DNA of 64,000 bases. Source: an uncultured Cocleimonas sp. (GTDB taxonomy: Bacteria > Pseudomonadota > Gammaproteobacteria > Thiotrichales > Thiotrichaceae). A model generated the notes under the pieces. It saw only the letters and a list, made by a program, of their open reading frames with translations, was not told the origin of the DNA and did no database searches. This document shows, piece by piece, positions 36,675-47,197 of the stretch. How positions within the stretch are numbered: the stretch's first letter is position 1; every line of letters begins with the position of its first letter. The translations under genes and the position numbers were made by a program. Where the stretch lies: contig NZ_CANLZW010000001.1 in the NCBI RefSeq assembly GCF_947495625.1, positions 186,001 to 250,000 on the forward strand. Reading direction: 5' to 3'.

Positions 36675-37001
36675 ATGCAGATGTTGAATAGATTTAAAAT
36701 TATATTAATTTTTATTGTAGTTCTAATTTCAGCAATGGCATGTCAAACAATTCCGTCTAATAACTCATCGTCATCTTCTAACAACAGTAGTAAAAAACAT
36801 TCAAATTATCTGAGTTGTTCTAATTCTCGACCTCAAATGTGCACGAAAGAATTTAGACCAGTATGTGCGGATGTTGATACTAAAGTGAGATGTGTAAAAG
36901 CACCCTGTCCATCAAACATCAGAAAGACAGTTTCAAATGGCTGCACTGCCTGCAGTGACAGTAATATTTATGGATATAGTTTAGGTGCTTGTGAAAAATA
37001 A
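36675..37001 (+). CDS. Small cysteine-rich putative lipoprotein, Kazal-like
   Basis: The 108-residue protein has an N-terminal hydrophobic segment (about 8-23) ending ISAMAC, a plausible but non-ideal lipobox, then a Ser/Asn-rich linker (about 28-42). A Cys-rich domain follows with CTKEFRPVCADVDTKVRC, CPSNIRKT and CTAC. The CTKEFRPVCA pattern resembles Kazal-type protease inhibitor domains. Eight cysteines lie after the signal region, suggesting disulphides in the periplasm or at the surface. Inhibitor function is not proven. Confidence 0.6.
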   Translation: MQMLNRFKIILIFIVVLISAMACQTIPSNNSSSSSNNSSKKHSNYLSCSNSRPQMCTKEFRPVCADVDTKVRCVKAPCPSNIRKTVSNGCTACSDSNIYGYSLGACEK

Positions 37002-37015
37002 AGAAAAAATATCAA

Positions 37016-37435
37016 TTACTTAACAAACGAATATTTATAATTACCACTGCTTAATATAAGTTTGTTGTTGTTCAGAAAATCAATTCCATACTTTAAAATA
37101 ATATCATCACCGTTTATAGGTGATAGATTTGTTACATATAAAATTTGACGTTTTATATGCCAATTTTCAGCATCAACAGAGAATGCATTAGGTATTAAAC
37201 ACGCGTCTCCTACAGATTTGTAATATCTGTTTTTGTAAAATGTTTGTGACCATGATGTGTCTTTACAATCATCATGTTGTCGCTGATATTTCCAGATACC
37301 ACTTGTGAGTGTTTTTTCTATATTGACGTCTTTCTGTGATTTAAGTGGATGAGATGACATAGTATTAGAAGCAGTATTAAAGTTGCTGCAACCTGTGAAT
37401 AGAACAGACAATAATATTAGCGGTATAACTTTCAT
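37016..37435 (-). CDS. Uncharacterised lipoprotein
   Basis: The 139-residue protein starts with MKVIPLILLSVLFTGCSNFN, where LFTGC is a good lipobox, so it should be lipid-anchored. The rest has no motif I recognise; segments such as SGIWKYQRQHDDC and NNKLILSSGNYKYSF suggest a small lipocalin-like or META-like beta barrel. It lies 96 bp after the di-haem gene on the same strand and may be the last gene of the amine-oxidase-like cluster. Confidence 0.65.
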   Translation of the reverse strand: MKVIPLILLSVLFTGCSNFNTASNTMSSHPLKSQKDVNIEKTLTSGIWKYQRQHDDCKDTSWSQTFYKNRYYKSVGDACLIPNAFSVDAENWHIKRQILYVTNLSPINGDDIILKYGIDFLNNNKLILSSGNYKYSFVK

Positions 37436-37531: not shown

Positions 37532-38731
37532 TTATAAAGTGAGTAAGAAATTAACAATATCTTGTTGTTCTTTAACAGTTAAAGATATGGGTGGTAGGTC
37601 TACTTCTAGCGCTCTGTTTTCATCAATACTACTGTAATATTTTAGAACTTCTTGTAAATTATTAAACCGGCCATCATGCATATAAGGTGCAGTTTTAGAT
37701 AAGTTTCTTAAAGACGGTGTTTTAAAAGCACCAGAGAGACCATGCTTGTTTCTATTGATGTAATTTAATTCAACACATTCTTCTTTTTTTGCATCGCTGT
37801 ACTTGCTTAAACAATTAAATTCATCATGTATAACAGCTTCTATAACTTCTGATCTACCGTTATCGTGAGCGAGAATTCCGGTACCAATATTATGAAATTC
37901 TTTATTGGTAAATAGTGGACCGCTATGACAATTTGAACAACCAGATTTTGGATTTATGAAAAGTTTATAACCGTTTATCTCAGATTCATTCAGAAGAGAA
38001 GAATGTTGTGTTTTTGCTAACTCGTAAGAAAACTTATCAAAACGTGCCTCTTTTGATTCAAGTGTAGATACATAGGACGCAATTGATTTTCCAATATTAG
38101 TAAAAAACTGATTTATTTTATCTCTTTGATTAGGTGTAAGTTTTTTCCATGCTATTAAACCTTGTAAATCTGCATTAGGACCGGCTTTATTAGGTAAATT
38201 TACGGGTGTAATAGATTTGGAGAGAGTTTGTTTAAAGCTAGATTCATACAGTGTTTTATAAATATTATCTCTCATGAATAAATTATATAACTCTACTCGG
38301 GTAAAATTTTGTTCTGCAGGATTTTCAATAGAACTTAATACTTGTGCCCAAAGACTGTCTTTACTTCCATCAGCAAAAAACCAGTTATGATGTGCTGCAT
38401 TTAAAAGTGTCGGTGTGTTTCTAAAACCTTTTTGTAAGCCAACAGCGAGATTATGATTATCTGTAAAAGCATTCCCTTTTATATGACAGGTAGCACAGGA
38501 TATTTTTTGATTACTGCTTAATCGAGTATCAAAAAATAAATTTTCACCTAAGGAAATAGCATTTTTATTTGAAAGATATTTATTTGAAGGATCAACAACA
38601 GGATCTAGTTGTTTCAGGGTAAAGGTGTTGATCTTTAGTATGTCTTCTTTAGACCATGAACTTGCATCTACCAAAGAGACGATAAATACTAAATTGAACA
38701 AAACTAAAAGATTAAATGAAGTCTTAATCAT
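37532..38731 (-). CDS. Di-haem cytochrome c peroxidase / MauG-family protein
   Basis: Periplasmic protein of 399 residues with a signal peptide (about 1-23) and two c-type haem sites, CATCH (about 79) and CSNCH (about 267). The family segment FRNTPTLLNAAHHNWFF follows the first haem, and KTPSLRNLSKTAPYMHDGRF lies near the C terminus. Such enzymes either reduce peroxide or, as MauG and MbnH, oxidise protein side chains to build cofactors. It is in one leftward unit with amine-oxidase-like genes, so a maturation or electron-transfer role for them is a reasonable hypothesis. Confidence 0.88.
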   Translation of the reverse strand: MIKTSFNLLVLFNLVFIVSLVDASSWSKEDILKINTFTLKQLDPVVDPSNKYLSNKNAISLGENLFFDTRLSSNQKISCATCHIKGNAFTDNHNLAVGLQKGFRNTPTLLNAAHHNWFFADGSKDSLWAQVLSSIENPAEQNFTRVELYNLFMRDNIYKTLYESSFKQTLSKSITPVNLPNKAGPNADLQGLIAWKKLTPNQRDKINQFFTNIGKSIASYVSTLESKEARFDKFSYELAKTQHSSLLNESEINGYKLFINPKSGCSNCHSGPLFTNKEFHNIGTGILAHDNGRSEVIEAVIHDEFNCLSKYSDAKKEECVELNYINRNKHGLSGAFKTPSLRNLSKTAPYMHDGRFNNLQEVLKYYSSIDENRALEVDLPPISLTVKEQQDIVNFLLTL

Positions 38732-38742
38732 TGTTCAAGTTT

Positions 38743-39153
38743 TTACTTAATTTGAAAGTTAAAAGTAACAATGTCTCGAGGCAGATTTTCAGTTTTATCT
38801 ATTAAAAATTTAAGTTGCCAAGCACCTGACATACTAAACTTTAAGCCATTGATTTTATGTGTCTTTTTATCAGAATCCCAAATTATTTTAGGTGAAGTCG
38901 GTAGACCATGATGATGTTCTGGCATTCCACCTTCAATAATGATGTCGGCATTAGGGATTATTACGTTTTTATCGTGAAGGTTTAAACTACATGACTGAAA
39001 GCCGCTTAAAGTGGGGGGGTGATCACATTGTAAATCAACTTTATAGTGGTTGTTTGTAGATACCTGAGACATTACCCAGATAGAGTTTTCACCCGCATTC
39101 AGTATGGCGTAAGAAACAATGAATATAGAAAATAATACAGATTTAATCATCAT
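38743..39153 (-). CDS. FixH/YtkA-like small exported protein
   Basis: The 136-residue protein has an N-terminal signal segment (about 4-20) and one beta-sandwich-like domain. It contains the His-rich motif GGMPEHHHGLPTSPK (about 82-96) and INGLKFSMSGAWQLKFLI (about 108-125), a pattern seen in FixH/YtkA-type proteins often found beside copper or cytochrome genes. The histidines and methionines could bind copper. It overlaps the upstream amine-oxidase-like gene by 11 bp. A copy of the dispersed repeat (39004-39023) is embedded in frame and encodes the HPPTLS part between two cysteines. Confidence 0.7.
   Translation of the reverse strand: MMIKSVLFSIFIVSYAILNAGENSIWVMSQVSTNNHYKVDLQCDHPPTLSGFQSCSLNLHDKNVIIPNADIIIEGGMPEHHHGLPTSPKIIWDSDKKTHKINGLKFSMSGAWQLKFLIDKTENLPRDIVTFNFQIK
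39004..39023 (+). repeat. Dispersed G-tract repeat, copy 8, inside the FixH-like gene
   Basis: The copy has core TTAAAGTGGGGGGGTGA on the plus strand, antisense to the host gene, where it encodes H-P-P-T-L-S. It is the second of two intragenic copies, and both host genes encode exported proteins. Confidence 0.85.
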
Positions 39154-40672
39154 TCTTTAACCTGCGACTTACACTTAACAAAATAATACTTAATAAAAAG
39201 AACAGTGAAATTAGCGATAATGATCCACCGCCAGAACCAGAACTAGTAGCTGCCTCTGTTACAGTCCAATTGAATTCAGTAGAACTATTTTGTTGACCAT
39301 CTGACACGGATATTTGTACAACATAAGTTCCTGTATTCGTTGGAGTACCAGTTATTTTACCCGTAGTAGCATCTATATTTAATCCAGGAGGTAAGTTAGT
39401 CCCTGAGTAATTTAAGCTATCGCCATCAGAATCATTAGCTTCTACATTGAGAGTAATAGATTTATTGATCTCACTGCTTTGACTGCCGATAGTTGTAATA
39501 GTAGGGGCTGAATTACTAACTTGTTCACTTAAAGTGTTTCTAGCCATCCAATCTCGAGGAATTATTTTGAGATGACTCCAGTGAGCATCCATATGCGGTG
39601 CATCTTCTGAGCGAGGCATATGATAAAAAGTGACTCCGGCCCAAACTACGATATCGTTATCAACAATATTTTCACCATTTACAAATTCATCTAAATTTTC
39701 GCCGCCACTGGTGTTGTGTGATGCAAAGCGTTCGTTATCCTTCTGGGTGGTAACAAAGAAGTCATTGTGAGTAAATGGTTCGCTTGTTGGACCGATGTCT
39801 TGATGGCCCATTTCACTAAGAATGACATCATAAGAAATATTATGACCATTCTCATTTTTAGCTGTTTTATCTTTTACACGCCAATGACGCATAGTGTCTG
39901 GGTTAACTTTGCGCGCTGCTTCTTTAGAAAAAGGAATAATGCTACGCTGTCGTTTACCATCAACAAGATCAAAATTAATTTCTTCTACAACATCATCTAG
40001 ATAGGTTTTATTTAGATCAAAGTCTAGTTTCCAATAAAAGTTATGTAAGTGAGCAATACCTACTCTGTCATCAGCTAATAACCAGCCAGTACTTTGGTCT
40101 GTTCCAAAACGTTGAAGTGCACCAGTAGCTCCCATCCAAGGTTCTATAGAGCCATTATCGAAGAATTTCCAGGTGGGAATATAATAGTAAGCACCGACTG
40201 GAGATACACTAAACAAACTTAGATAATAACCATTTGATGAATTAGTACCTGATTTAAATGAGATATCTTGTTTAGTCGTTTGTTTACAAAGAACATTTTT
40301 ACCGTTGAATGGCAGTAGGCTTCCGCTTGGGCATTCGTCAGCTTGGACTTCTAACATATTCAAGCCACCTATTCCGAGATCTGATAAATCATGAAAACGG
40401 GTGCCGTTATCATCATAAGGAACGTGTATTTGTGCTATTGCAGCTTGATTCAGTACCATTCTACGAGAGCCATTTTTTGGCGTAAAATAGATACTTTTGA
40501 AGATAATCCCTTCTCTGTCTTTATGTTCCCAACACATATCCCAGCGAGCACCATTGGGAAAGATTTCATTGACATAAAACTCATCACCGCAATCTTCGGC
40601 AGCGTGAGCGTTACTAAAACCAAGTAAAAAAATTGTTATTAGTAAAACTATTTTTGTTATTAATTTATTCAA
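39143..40672 (-). CDS. Copper-amine-oxidase-like catalytic domain protein, surface-anchored
   Basis: The 509-residue protein has a signal peptide (about 6-24) and a domain (about 27-385) that aligns with the C-terminal catalytic domain of copper amine oxidases. Visible are a catalytic-base region (HDLSDLGIGG), the cofactor strand (VSPVGAYYYIPTWKF, where true enzymes have V-G-N-Y-D-Y), the HLHNFYWKLDFDL copper HxH, and the third ligand YHMPRSEDAP, which fits the family signature. One Ig-like putative-sugar-binding repeat (about 392-478) and a GGGS-hydrophobic-basic GlyGly-CTERM-like tail follow. The N2/N3 domains are absent and are encoded by a separate gene. Confidence 0.78.
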   Translation of the reverse strand: MNKLITKIVLLITIFLLGFSNAHAAEDCGDEFYVNEIFPNGARWDMCWEHKDREGIIFKSIYFTPKNGSRRMVLNQAAIAQIHVPYDDNGTRFHDLSDLGIGGLNMLEVQADECPSGSLLPFNGKNVLCKQTTKQDISFKSGTNSSNGYYLSLFSVSPVGAYYYIPTWKFFDNGSIEPWMGATGALQRFGTDQSTGWLLADDRVGIAHLHNFYWKLDFDLNKTYLDDVVEEINFDLVDGKRQRSIIPFSKEAARKVNPDTMRHWRVKDKTAKNENGHNISYDVILSEMGHQDIGPTSEPFTHNDFFVTTQKDNERFASHNTSGGENLDEFVNGENIVDNDIVVWAGVTFYHMPRSEDAPHMDAHWSHLKIIPRDWMARNTLSEQVSNSAPTITTIGSQSSEINKSITLNVEANDSDGDSLNYSGTNLPPGLNIDATTGKITGTPTNTGTYVVQISVSDGQQNSSTEFNWTVTEAATSSGSGGGSLSLISLFFLLSIILLSVSRRLKNDD

Positions 40673-40686
40673 AATATTTGCTCTTA

Positions 40687-45054
<4,368 letters not shown>

Positions 45055-45067
45055 TATTATAAAGTCA

Positions 45068-46246
45068 TTACAACTTGTTTGTTGATGTCCAGTCACGTGG
45101 TAACAATATGAAATTGCTCCATTGAACAGCAGCAGGAGAAAAATCTTCATCTCTTGGCAAAGTGTGATGAACTAAGCGGTACCAAACAACAATATCTTTA
45201 GCATTAGTATTTTGTGAATTCACAAACTCTGAAACATTACTACCACAGCTATTAGTTGGATTATTTACCGCAAATCTTTCACAAGCGTTATAAGTAGTTA
45301 TGTAAACATCATTTTTTAACCACGGATAAGAGCTGTTTCCCTTACTTTGCTGGCCATAATTAAGCATTACCATTTCATAAGATATGGGTTGGTTGGCATT
45401 ATTAGTTTCACTTTGGTCTCTGATACGCCAGAATTTTTTATTAGCAGGTGTAAAAGAAGCAGCTAACTCAGATGATATGGTTTGTGTTTGCTTGGTTTTA
45501 GTTAAGCGATCAGTAGATGGAATACTTTTTATTTGCTCTACAACATCATTATCATTGCTAGAACCTATATCGAAATCAAGGCGCCAAAAGAAGTGATCAG
45601 TAAAGCTTGTTGAAATTTTATTTTCAGAGGTCACTGTCCAACCTGCTTTAGAATCTGAGGTTGTTTTGGTGAATTGACCCGTAATTCCGACGCCTGTTTC
45701 AATAGTCCCATTTTCCAGAAATGACCAGCGCAGAATAAACTCTCTGGAATTGATACTTGATGCACTTAGAATTTCTAATTTGCTGCCTTGACGACGTACT
45801 TCATCTCGATATCGATAAATATAACCATTAGCGCGAGTAACTTCACATAACACGTTTCTTCCAGCTTCTTCGTGCAGTTGACCACCTTCACACATGGAAG
45901 GGCTAAGGGTCTGCAATCTATTTCCACCTAATCCAAAATCAGTAACAAGAAATTGGTCTGCAGAGCCGTCATCATATTCTGTTTGAATTTGAGAGAGGCT
46001 TACTTCACCTAATACTTTCTTTCTCGTTGCACCTACAGCTTTATAGTGAATATCACTTAAAACCACACCTTCTTCATCTCTTACTTCCCAACAAAGATCC
46101 CAGGCAGCACCGGAAGAAAATGTTTTTGAAATAGTATTACCTGCAGCACAAGAGCTGGTATTAGGTCTTGCAAAAGAAGCACTAGAGATTAACAGTGATG
46201 TCAAAATTAAAAGAGTTAAACCTGCTTTGATTATATTTTTATTCAT
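45068..46246 (-). CDS. Catalytically degenerate copper-amine-oxidase-like protein
   Basis: The 392-residue exported protein (signal about 8-26) aligns over its whole length with the oxidase domain of its two neighbours: WDLCWEVRDEEGVVLSDIHY, YDDGSADQFLVTDFGLGG, NVLCEVTRANGY and VVWYRLVHHTLPRDED. Every catalytic residue is changed. The base Asp is Leu (FLVTDFG), the cofactor Tyr is Arg (NSREFILRW), the copper HxH is Phe-x-Asp (FTDHFFWRLDF), and the third copper His is Thr. It has no Ig repeats and no sorting tail. It should be a non-enzymatic partner or scaffold. Confidence 0.78.
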   Translation of the reverse strand: MNKNIIKAGLTLLILTSLLISSASFARPNTSSCAAGNTISKTFSSGAAWDLCWEVRDEEGVVLSDIHYKAVGATRKKVLGEVSLSQIQTEYDDGSADQFLVTDFGLGGNRLQTLSPSMCEGGQLHEEAGRNVLCEVTRANGYIYRYRDEVRRQGSKLEILSASSINSREFILRWSFLENGTIETGVGITGQFTKTTSDSKAGWTVTSENKISTSFTDHFFWRLDFDIGSSNDNDVVEQIKSIPSTDRLTKTKQTQTISSELAASFTPANKKFWRIRDQSETNNANQPISYEMVMLNYGQQSKGNSSYPWLKNDVYITTYNACERFAVNNPTNSCGSNVSEFVNSQNTNAKDIVVWYRLVHHTLPRDEDFSPAAVQWSNFILLPRDWTSTNKL

Positions 46247-46248
46247 GC

Positions 46249-46941
46249 TTAAAAACCGATTCTCTGAGTTACAACACCCGCGGATAAATTAACAATAGGA
46301 GAAATTTCAAATACAATATTTTCATCGGTATAAAGCATCAGCTGCGCGCAGCGATGGATACCACATTGTTTGCTCGCTTCGTTGACTCTATTAGGCAAAC
46401 TATCTGCTGTGAATGTAAATGCTTTGATATTTAATTCAGATGTATCATTCAGTGTGCGTGATGTGATTCGGTTGTATTCGTGCTCAAGAATCTTACGTTC
46501 ATCTTCATCTTCAAATACAATTTCTTTTGCTCGTTTGAGTTCATTAACCGTCAAAGGAAGCTGAACTCCTTGTTTGGTAACAGAGCTGATAATTTCTGAA
46601 GTATTTAGATCAACTAAGGTTTCTTGTAGTTCATCCGTTGCATAATTATAAATATAGACATCGGCACGACGTTGTCCCTTAGGAGCACCTTTTTCTTCAT
46701 TGCGCTCAATCAATAAAACTTCCTGATTATCATTTGTTCCTATGCCTGTTGCTATACCATTTTCAGATTTAGCAGCGAGCGTCTGAGGAGTGACTAAATT
46801 ACCGACTCGAGAAATTTCATCAATGGTTAAAGGATCATTACTATGAGCGTAGACATTGCTTATGCTAATAAGGCTTAAGCTAAGAGCACTTATAATTATT
46901 GATGCATACATTTTTGTGTTTGTTGGTCTAGAAAAAATCAT
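46249..46941 (-). CDS. Stand-alone copper amine oxidase N2/N3-like protein
   Basis: About 230 residues with a signal peptide (about 10-32, ending SISNVYA). The mature part starts HSNDPLTIDEISRVGNLV, like the HPLxPLTxxEI opening of amine oxidase domain N2, then EVLLIERNEEKG, QRRADVYIYNYATDELQETLVDL (in parts), and an N3-like half beginning LPLTVNELKRAKEIVFEDEDERKI (in parts). No catalytic domain follows. It ends 2 bp before the degenerate oxidase gene and is first in the cluster, so it may assemble with the separate catalytic subunits. The ATG at 46941 is preferred over TTG at 46947. Confidence 0.72.
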   Translation of the reverse strand: MIFSRPTNTKMYASIIISALSLSLISISNVYAHSNDPLTIDEISRVGNLVTPQTLAAKSENGIATGIGTNDNQEVLLIERNEEKGAPKGQRRADVYIYNYATDELQETLVDLNTSEIISSVTKQGVQLPLTVNELKRAKEIVFEDEDERKILEHEYNRITSRTLNDTSELNIKAFTFTADSLPNRVNEASKQCGIHRCAQLMLYTDENIVFEISPIVNLSAGVVTQRIGF

Positions 46942-47197
46942 TATCAACTCACTAAAATAAATTTTTATTATATCTGGTCAAGTATAAACCAGATTCGGCG
47001 CATTAAAATGATAATAGTCAAACAGTTACTGCCATCTATCAGATAATTACTGTAAATATCGTTGTTAAATGTAGGTTAACTAATCATCAAAAGCTTTCAA
47101 AGGGTTATCAGGTTTAGGCACATTTCTTTACAAGCAACGAAACACACCATAAACTCTCCATAATTTCAAAATGCCCCCCCAAATTTGGTGATTAGCT

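Follow-up and report, generated by a model that had tools for sequence, protein, structure and literature searches.

Organization of the locus

The window analysed here is a 64,000-nucleotide stretch of a 4.6-Mb Cocleimonas-like genome (G000:C1:186001-250000), and its minus strand carries an operon in which the domains of a copper amine oxidase are encoded as separate genes. In the order of transcription, the operon comprised a free N2/N3-like gene, a catalytic-domain paralogue devoid of catalytic residues (CATa), two catalytic-domain paralogues that retained them (CATb1 and CATb2), a YtkA-like gene, a MauG-like di-haem gene and a lipoprotein-like gene, with intergenic gaps of 2, 13, 14, -11, 11 and 96 bp, in this order, as calculated from the coordinates of the open reading frames (ORFs). 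An earlier sequence-only reading had proposed an N2/N3-like gene followed by three catalytic chains and by YtkA-type and di-haem genes, and these genes, their order and their strand were borne out; it overlooked the lipoprotein-like gene, the loss of an asparagine next to the cofactor-precursor tyrosine and the inactive state of one catalytic paralogue. The closest named locus recovered in a scan of a genome collection was that of Cocleimonas flava DSM 24830, with 91% identity in the second live catalytic domain (CATb2). Coordinates below refer to the window and to its minus strand unless stated otherwise.

Catalytic chains with and without active-site residues

CATa (45068..46246), CATb1 (40687..45054) and CATb2 (39143..40672) were all matched by Cu_amine_oxid (PF01179), with expect values (E) of 8.6e-39, 1.9e-38 and 1.1e-32, the last being that of CATa; the scores were 134, 132.9 and 114 bits, the cut-off being 27. 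A profile search matched 1ksi across nearly the whole catalytic domain (E 1.2e-36). CATb1 and CATb2 were 70% identical in the catalytic domain, and CATa and CATb2 32%. The CATb1 start is probably located at 45054, 13 bp past the preceding gene, rather than at the first ATG at 45150. PF01179 matched four times in the window genome, three matches being the catalytic chains and the fourth a second piece within the 1487-aa ORF frame, so that no further catalytic copy was found in this genome.

Alignment to canonical enzymes placed the active site of CATb1 at 44401..44775, including Tyr94 (44773-44775), the base Asp103 (44746-44748), the precursor Tyr170 (44545-44547) and the copper ligands His216 and His218 of the HxH motif (44407-44409 and 44401-44403), with the third ligand, His359, at 43978-43980. 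In CATb2, the corresponding span (40043..40417) included Tyr86, the base Asp95, Ala161 in the place of the usual Asn, the precursor Tyr162 (40187-40189) and His208/His210, and the third ligand was His351 (39620-39622). The base had initially been placed at the SD of an SDLG stretch, and this was rejected when the profile alignment with pea amine oxidase put it at Asp95 instead; with this reassignment, the base of the Streptomyces CATb proteins was counted as kept and not as lost. CATa of the window presented R168 at the position of the topaquinone (TPQ) precursor, F215 and D217 at HxH, and a Leu at the base position. The homology of the three paralogues, as first proposed, held for all of them, but CATa lacked the copper-binding His residues, the precursor Tyr and the base.

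The residue survey was extended to relatives obtained in the genome-collection scan, which used two peptide patterns and from which the best 80 of 282 relatives were kept (L035-L114). A single profile alignment included 121 proteins, namely 119 family members (three from the window and 116 from these loci) and two canonical controls. The CATb class was defined by the presence of HxH and of the precursor tyrosine (n=85) and the remaining 34 proteins were assigned to CATa; since these residues define the class, only the others count as independent evidence. In this respect, the third His, the equivalent of AGAO Tyr284 and the base Asp were each present in 85/85 CATb proteins. In CATa, the first His, the second His and the base Asp were each found in 0/34, and the precursor tyrosine persisted in 6/34. 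All 119 members fell into one class or the other, with no intermediates, and CATa formed one clade with a support of 100 in the Shimodaira-Hasegawa-like approximate likelihood ratio test. The underlying tree, built by a quick search with no bootstrap, comprised 94 rows, namely 34 CATa, 58 CATb (after thinning of the Streptomyces rows) and the two canonical controls on long branches. CATa was encountered only in Pseudomonadota loci, and the loci of Herpetosiphon, Streptomyces, Caldilineaceae and Hydrocarboniphaga presented N2/N3 and CATb without it. Judging from the aligned residues, two of the three catalytic domains of the window look active and CATa is apparently inactive.

Absence of the asparagine preceding the precursor tyrosine

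In PMC3382800, the Asn before the TPQ tyrosine is termed strictly conserved, within the consensus T-x-x-N-Y-D/E. It was observed that CATb departed from this consensus: Asn was present at this position in 0/85 CATb proteins, which carried A (40), W (34), S (5), E (4) or Q (2), and in 2/2 canonical controls. The W was found in the 34 Streptomyces proteins and the four of Herpetosiphon had A; moreover, the residue directly after the precursor tyrosine varied freely among CATb. At the Asn position, the window resembles the AGAO mutant 7wir, which was among the matches of the PDB search. The consequences of such substitutions have been described in canonical enzymes, in which HPAO N404A formed only 5-10% of TPQ (PMC3382800) and AGAO N381A displayed 1/180 of the TPQ formation and 1/160 of the kcat (PMC9491219).

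The separate N2/N3 chain and its conservation

The first gene of the operon (P0004; 46249..46941, with a TTG at 46947 as a possible alternative start) encodes a chain whose N2/N3 identity speaks more clearly from predicted fold than from sequence. It was matched by positions 10-151 of PRK11504 (E 5.7e-10), and the family profile reached PDB copper amine oxidases at best with E 0.041, Hansenula amine oxidase being on top. C195 and C200 were invariant in an alignment of 30 rows, and the chains of the window and of Herpetosiphon shared 32% identity over 194 residues. The fold of a homologue from Thiothrix lacustris, predicted with AlphaFold2 as a read-through into CATa, presented a mean predicted local distance difference test score (pLDDT) of 80.7 and a predicted template modelling score (pTM) of 0.58. 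Foldseek matched this model to AGAO with 1.4e-32 over 656 columns (template modelling score, TM, 0.49), and the VIA-align alignments ran through model residues 28 to 616 in order.

Relatives were distributed over three phyla, being found in Cocleimonas, Thiothrix, Leucothrix, Methylococcales, assemblies of Pseudomonadales, Hydrocarboniphaga, one Caldilineaceae assembly, four Herpetosiphon loci and 34 Streptomyces loci. As in the window, N2/N3 was a separate gene in all N2/N3-bearing loci of the set. When the locus had room upstream, CATb was preceded by a separate N2/N3 gene in 32/32 Streptomyces and 4/4 Herpetosiphon loci; in the remaining taxa, Thiotrichaceae and Methylococcales among them, this was true of 32/43 CATb genes, and the other 11 corresponded to eight lone loci and to three second or flanking copies in operons that hold an N2/N3 gene (L035, L070 and L071). 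In 63 genomes of its own family, catalytic genes were found in 27, all of which (27/27) had N2/N3; 35 had neither, and one (G050) had N2/N3 only, sited at a contig end. This co-occurrence gave a Fisher p of 5.7e-17, a test that ignores kinship, as all Fisher p-values here do, and many rows are close kin, such as the 34 Streptomyces loci. The system was also patchy within genera, for instance in 6/12 genomes of its own genus, which argues that the co-occurrence does not result from shared descent only. The gene order suggested in the sequence-only reading thus recurred in other genomes, scattered and independent relatives were not seen for the core, and the proposed division of domain roles between chains found its counterpart in N2/N3 and catalytic domains encoded as separate genes from genome to genome. 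From this gene content, the split is judged to be old and conserved.

Some arrangements deserve mention. The lone CATb genes (L054-L057 and L061-L064) belong to Thiothrix and Leucothrix-type genomes, and five of them carry E or Q before the tyrosine. Two Thiothrix genomes harbored a doubled unit, CATa-CATb-N2/N3-CATa-CATb (L070:7099-12484 and L071:5662-11110), whose catalytic chains, of 386-416 aa, leave no room for tails or additional domains. The Thiothrix fructosivorans plasmid pTfr446 bears the N2/N3-CATa-CATb trio (L051), and the oxidase system may therefore travel. A plasmid collection searched with the N2/N3 chain gave no match; with the catalytic domain it gave 53 records, all below 60% identity, and the named ones among those shown were ordinary amine oxidases or hypothetical proteins. 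In the sampled neighbours of the Streptomyces, Herpetosiphon, Methylococcales and Pseudomonadales loci, housekeeping or unassigned genes were found, with no common partner beyond N2/N3.

Putative cell surface features

According to Pfam, He_PIG was present in both CATb1 and CATb2, and Big_9 in CATb1 and, more weakly, in CATb2. By eye, both chains ended in Gly-rich, hydrophobic and basic tails of the GlyGly type, for which a profile gave only a weak SVAGG match. The window genome encodes a rhombosortase (144 bits, cut-off 84), and each of the 14 control genomes gave only weaker matches that did not pass this cut-off. CATb1 also contained three repeats of ~170 aa (41077-43332), which start with IDGN or VDGN and alternate with cadherin-like domains. 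These DGN-type repeats were considered as sugar-binding modules, and nothing convincing was found in Pfam or PDB.

The YtkA-like and di-haem proteins

The His-rich protein encoded by 38743..39153, a secreted protein and putative copper carrier, had been described as FixH/YtkA-like. Its match to YtkA (PF13115) was just above the cut-off (E 6.9e-6, 27.1 bits, cut-off 25.9), but no FixH match was listed, so that only the YtkA part of that description was retained. The protein bears the motif GGMPEHHHGLPT, with Met77, His80 and His82. In its family, two Cys and a GxM-x2-H-x-HGLPT core were found in 17/17 rows, one of them shortened by a contig end, and a Trp in all 16 rows reaching that position. 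The conserved core is a plausible copper site.

The gene at 37532..38731 encodes a protein matched by CCP_MauG (PF03150; E 9.1e-37, 127.4 bits, cut-off 25.6), with CATCH at residue 79, CSNCH at residue 265 and Tyr366 at the position of the six-coordinate haem, in agreement with the MauG-type di-haem protein first proposed. Both CxxCH motifs and this Tyr were present in 16/16 aligned di-haem proteins, the ligation being predicted from the alignment. Tyr366 aligned with a Met in the peroxidase 1iqc, with a Tyr in 6e1c and with chain position 294 of MauG, this chain position being taken as the published number. The best PDB profile match was 6e1c, labelled di-heme enzyme, which we take to be MbnH. 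Among the NCBIfam models, the best score was that of MbnH (TIGR04039; 150.2 bits, cut-off 362.85), and the MauG equivalog gave a lower one (TIGR03791; 136 bits, cut-off 443.85), both under their cut-offs. The Trp of an FWDG motif, presumably the bridging Trp of MauG-type enzymes, was kept in 12/16 di-haem proteins and replaced with Ala in four Cocleimonas proteins, including that of the window (Ala120). According to PMC6405878, BthA has a Ser at this site and still works.

In support of the proposed di-haem partner, its gene tracked the oxidase within the family of the window genome: a MauG subfamily scoring at least 560 bits, a threshold chosen after seeing no scores between 362 and ~561 bits, was present in 23/27 oxidase-bearing genomes and in 0/36 others. 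Of the four exceptions, G043 has a partial copy of 331 bits, located on the same contig as the oxidase, and the other three (G008, G038 and G047) are incomplete assemblies (80, 69 and 56%). In profile searches of the 80 loci, MauG was found in 16 and YtkA in 16; among the 24 CATb rows with CATa before and more than 2 kb behind, MauG followed 14 and YtkA 13. No di-haem or YtkA match was detected in the four Herpetosiphon and 34 Streptomyces loci, the rest of those genomes not being sought, nor within L041, L051, L065 and L070-L074, and L068, which presented a MauG-like gene after CATb, gave no YtkA match.

As a separate di-haem system, a cassette of YtkA, MauG and a third protein was found in four Thiotrichaceae genomes in which no catalytic domain was matched (L117:99-2889, L118:3379-6304, L119:1-2134 and L120:3634-6410). 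These genomes were G016, G023, G025 and G050, the latter having the N2/N3 gene mentioned above. The third protein showed an AHIKWFV or AHVKWFV stretch near its start and a sub-threshold MauE match in 2/2 scanned (E 0.008 and 0.038), and the cassette MauG scored 331-362 bits vs. 562-634 for the oxidase-linked subfamily. Since YtkA-MauG pairs occur without the oxidase and oxidase loci occur without the pair, the pair looks like a module serving more than one system.

A proposed heteromeric surface oxidase and its alternatives

These data can be accommodated, on balance probably, by a secreted, heteromeric copper/quinone amine oxidase of the cell surface, composed of separate chains and including an inactive structural subunit. 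CATb would hold the copper through its three His, together with the tyrosine that becomes TPQ and the base Asp, and the free N2/N3 chain would dock on it in the arrangement known for N2 and N3 of single-chain enzymes. Having lost its active site, CATa would fill a structural or regulatory role, most likely as the second protomer of the dimer. GlyGly tails processed by the rhombosortase may hold CATb1 and CATb2 at the cell surface, where they would oxidise amines, be they small molecules or amino groups on polymers of the surface, with aldehyde, ammonia and H2O2 as products. The YtkA-like protein may deliver the copper, and the di-haem protein would serve the oxidase via maturation or as a redox partner.

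The docking of N2/N3 was addressed with two read-through models. In a Streptomyces N2/N3+CATb model (pTM 0.64), both parts superposed on the whole pea amine oxidase (4.2 A, 464 residues, Z 25.9), and in the Thiothrix N2/N3+CATa model the parts matched known enzymes by fold but not by placement, with root-mean-square deviations of 23-28 A when both parts were included (TM ~0.49) and of 2.6-3.5 A where the aligned part was mainly catalytic. The placement of N2/N3 as in known enzymes on CATb, and not on CATa, weakly suggests that it belongs on CATb, in a comparison of models that differ in organism, depth and quality. Several results weigh against the heteromeric oxidase. The mean pLDDT of the Streptomyces model was only 59.2, its superposition on AGAO by Foldseek was poor (~14 A, TM 0.49/0.58), and the misplaced parts of the Thiothrix model belong here as well; both models are single chains read through and not separate chains, and AlphaFold2 was exposed to copper amine oxidases in training. 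The N2/N3 assignment made in the sequence-only reading finds support in the PRK11504 match and in the predicted fold of the homologue, but the chain itself fell below the curated cut-off of PF02727 (N2; E 1.1e-3, 19.6 bits, cut-off 21), and an N2 scan of three homologues gave AGAO-like_N2 at E 0.026 in one and no match in two. The eight lone CATb loci have no nearby N2/N3, and in G026 CATb, verified by its residues, lies on a different contig from N2/N3-CATa. Finally, as the Asn is absent in 85/85 CATb proteins, their activity may be low or different.

This last point opens a less favoured possibility, which we regard as rather unlikely, namely that the CATb tyrosine, without the Asn, is poorly converted by copper and O2, and that the MauG-like enzyme, with its predicted Tyr-ligated haem, completes or alters the cofactor by an oxidation at long range, in the manner of MauG and MbnH. 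The slow or incomplete TPQ formation of the Asn-to-Ala mutants cited above, the tracking of the oxidase by the MauG subfamily within the family and the Tyr at the six-coordinate haem in 16/16 proteins would fit it, as would the precedent of an operon joining a copper enzyme, a copper chaperone and mauG for methanethiol oxidase (PMC5739008). However, the same Asn is missing where the locus holds no di-haem match, in Streptomyces and Herpetosiphon and in L041, L051, L065 and L070-L074 (the search covering the loci), and some genomes that gave no catalytic match nonetheless contain a YtkA-MauG pair, both findings arguing against a general maturation role; the Ala at the FWDG Trp in 4/16, including the window, also speaks against it, although BthA works with Ser. 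A stronger version of this idea, in which the lineage gave up self-processing and became an obligate heteromer of live, dead and N2/N3 chains whose tyrosine-derived cofactor is built or tuned by the di-haem enzyme, must be seen as quite improbable. The di-haem protein could instead be a redox outlet that removes the H2O2 of the oxidase or accepts electrons from its cofactor with no part in maturation, since it is an exported CCP_MauG member beside an enzyme that would make H2O2, with its gene downstream in 16/80 loci. This seems improbable too, given that such a gene is missing from the Streptomyces and Herpetosiphon loci and that the Tyr, and not Met, at the six-coordinate haem in 16/16 is of the MauG/BthA type and not that of canonical peroxidases, although BthA still reduces H2O2 (PMC6405878).

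MbnH acts on MbnP. By analogy, the di-haem protein may act on the YtkA-like protein and make a modified copper site, the pair supplying copper and being merely hitched to the oxidase. We regard this as a tentative alternative, with which the four cassette genomes agree, with the YtkA-like gene directly before the 331-362-bit MauG in 4/4 and the AH(I/V)KWFV protein after it; the invariant core (17/17) and Trp (16 rows) of the YtkA-like family would also be explained, as would G026, in which the order N2/N3-CATa-YtkA-MauG keeps the pair with N2/N3-CATa and CATb lies elsewhere. Nevertheless, the oxidase-linked subfamily of 562-634 bits was found only with the oxidase, one oxidase genome having the 331-bit partial copy, and the MauG-like gene of L068 follows CATb with no YtkA match. 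Alternatively, CATb might no longer be an enzyme, but a protein that binds copper or mediates adhesion at the surface and that has kept its copper site and stopped making TPQ. The loss of the Asn in 85/85, the free variation after the tyrosine and the immunoglobulin- and cadherin-like domains and GlyGly-like tails of the window chains would agree with such a function, but it is made very doubtful by the retention of the base Asp and the Tyr284 equivalent in 85/85, residues needed for catalysis or cofactor placement rather than for copper binding.

Relation to known systems

The textbook copper amine oxidase is one self-sufficient chain. The system described here shares with AGAO, ECAO, HPAO and the pea seedling enzyme the catalytic domain, the three His, the precursor Tyr, the Tyr284 equivalent and the base Asp, all in CATb, and an N2/N3-like predicted fold, in a separate chain. 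It differs from them in having N2/N3 on another chain, an extra dead catalytic paralogue and no Asn in 85/85, as well as surface domains, GlyGly-like tails and an operon that also encodes YtkA-like and di-haem proteins. Since both the one-chain architecture and the Asn consensus are departed from, it was classed as a variant and not as a canonical member. The Pichia lysyl oxidase PPLO (1n9e and 1w7c) was among the structural and profile matches. PPLO acts on polymers and carries its N-terminal domains on the same single chain, and we know of no pseudoenzyme partner for it.

With MauG, which participates in the biosynthesis of tryptophan tryptophylquinone (TTQ), the window di-haem protein shares the two CxxCH haems and the Tyr at the six-coordinate position, but it lies far under the equivalog cut-off and has Ala in the place of the FWDG Trp. 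It resembles the MbnH/MXAN_0977 di-haem enzymes in its best NCBIfam score and in being paired with a small exported protein bearing His and Met, and it differs in scoring under the curated cut-off and in having a YtkA-like partner. The mtoX-SCO1/senC-mauG operon (PMC5739008) is built alike, its copper oxidase gene being followed by those of a copper chaperone and of a MauG-like protein, but the oxidase is of the unrelated SBP56 type, the chaperone is SCO1 and not YtkA, and TTQ and not TPQ is proposed.

Among the matches listed in open-licence PMC, seen as titles and abstract starts, there was no split or two-chain copper amine oxidase, no dead paralogue and no link between MauG and copper amine oxidases, and a study of the tree of life of these enzymes (PMC12058724) does not use the words N2 domain, Streptomyces or Proteobacteria. 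As far as the searched open-licence literature shows, the split chains, the dead sister chain and the missing consensus Asn represent a real, conserved and undescribed variant of the copper amine oxidases, which are a model for cofactors made from the protein's own side chain. The variant provides a broad natural family, spanning three phyla, in which all 85 live-looking members examined lack the Asn held to be strictly conserved in PMC3382800 and in which, among Gammaproteobacteria, a dead paralogue accompanies the live one. This makes testable whether TPQ forms in vivo without that Asn and with whose help, and what role a dead protomer plays in a dimer; the two-chain form of Herpetosiphon or Streptomyces can naturally serve as a control for the Thiotrichaceae form with the di-haem gene, and vice versa.

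Flanking regions

On one side, the operon is flanked by what we take, from the ORF translations, to be a gyrB-exonuclease stretch, and on the other side by a presumed phosphate-transport pair. Scans for promoters (39 promoter-like sites vs. 43.6 expected) and terminators (9 terminator-like sites vs. 5.5 expected) were uninformative. On the plus strand, 36675-37001 encodes a small Cys-rich, lipoprotein-like ORF of 108 aa, convergent with the operon and with no confident family match. The small lipoprotein-like gene at 37016..37435 (minus strand) is likely the last of the operon, its position being conserved in C. flava and in two other Cocleimonas loci, and it is 94% identical to the gene found at the same position in C. 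flava.

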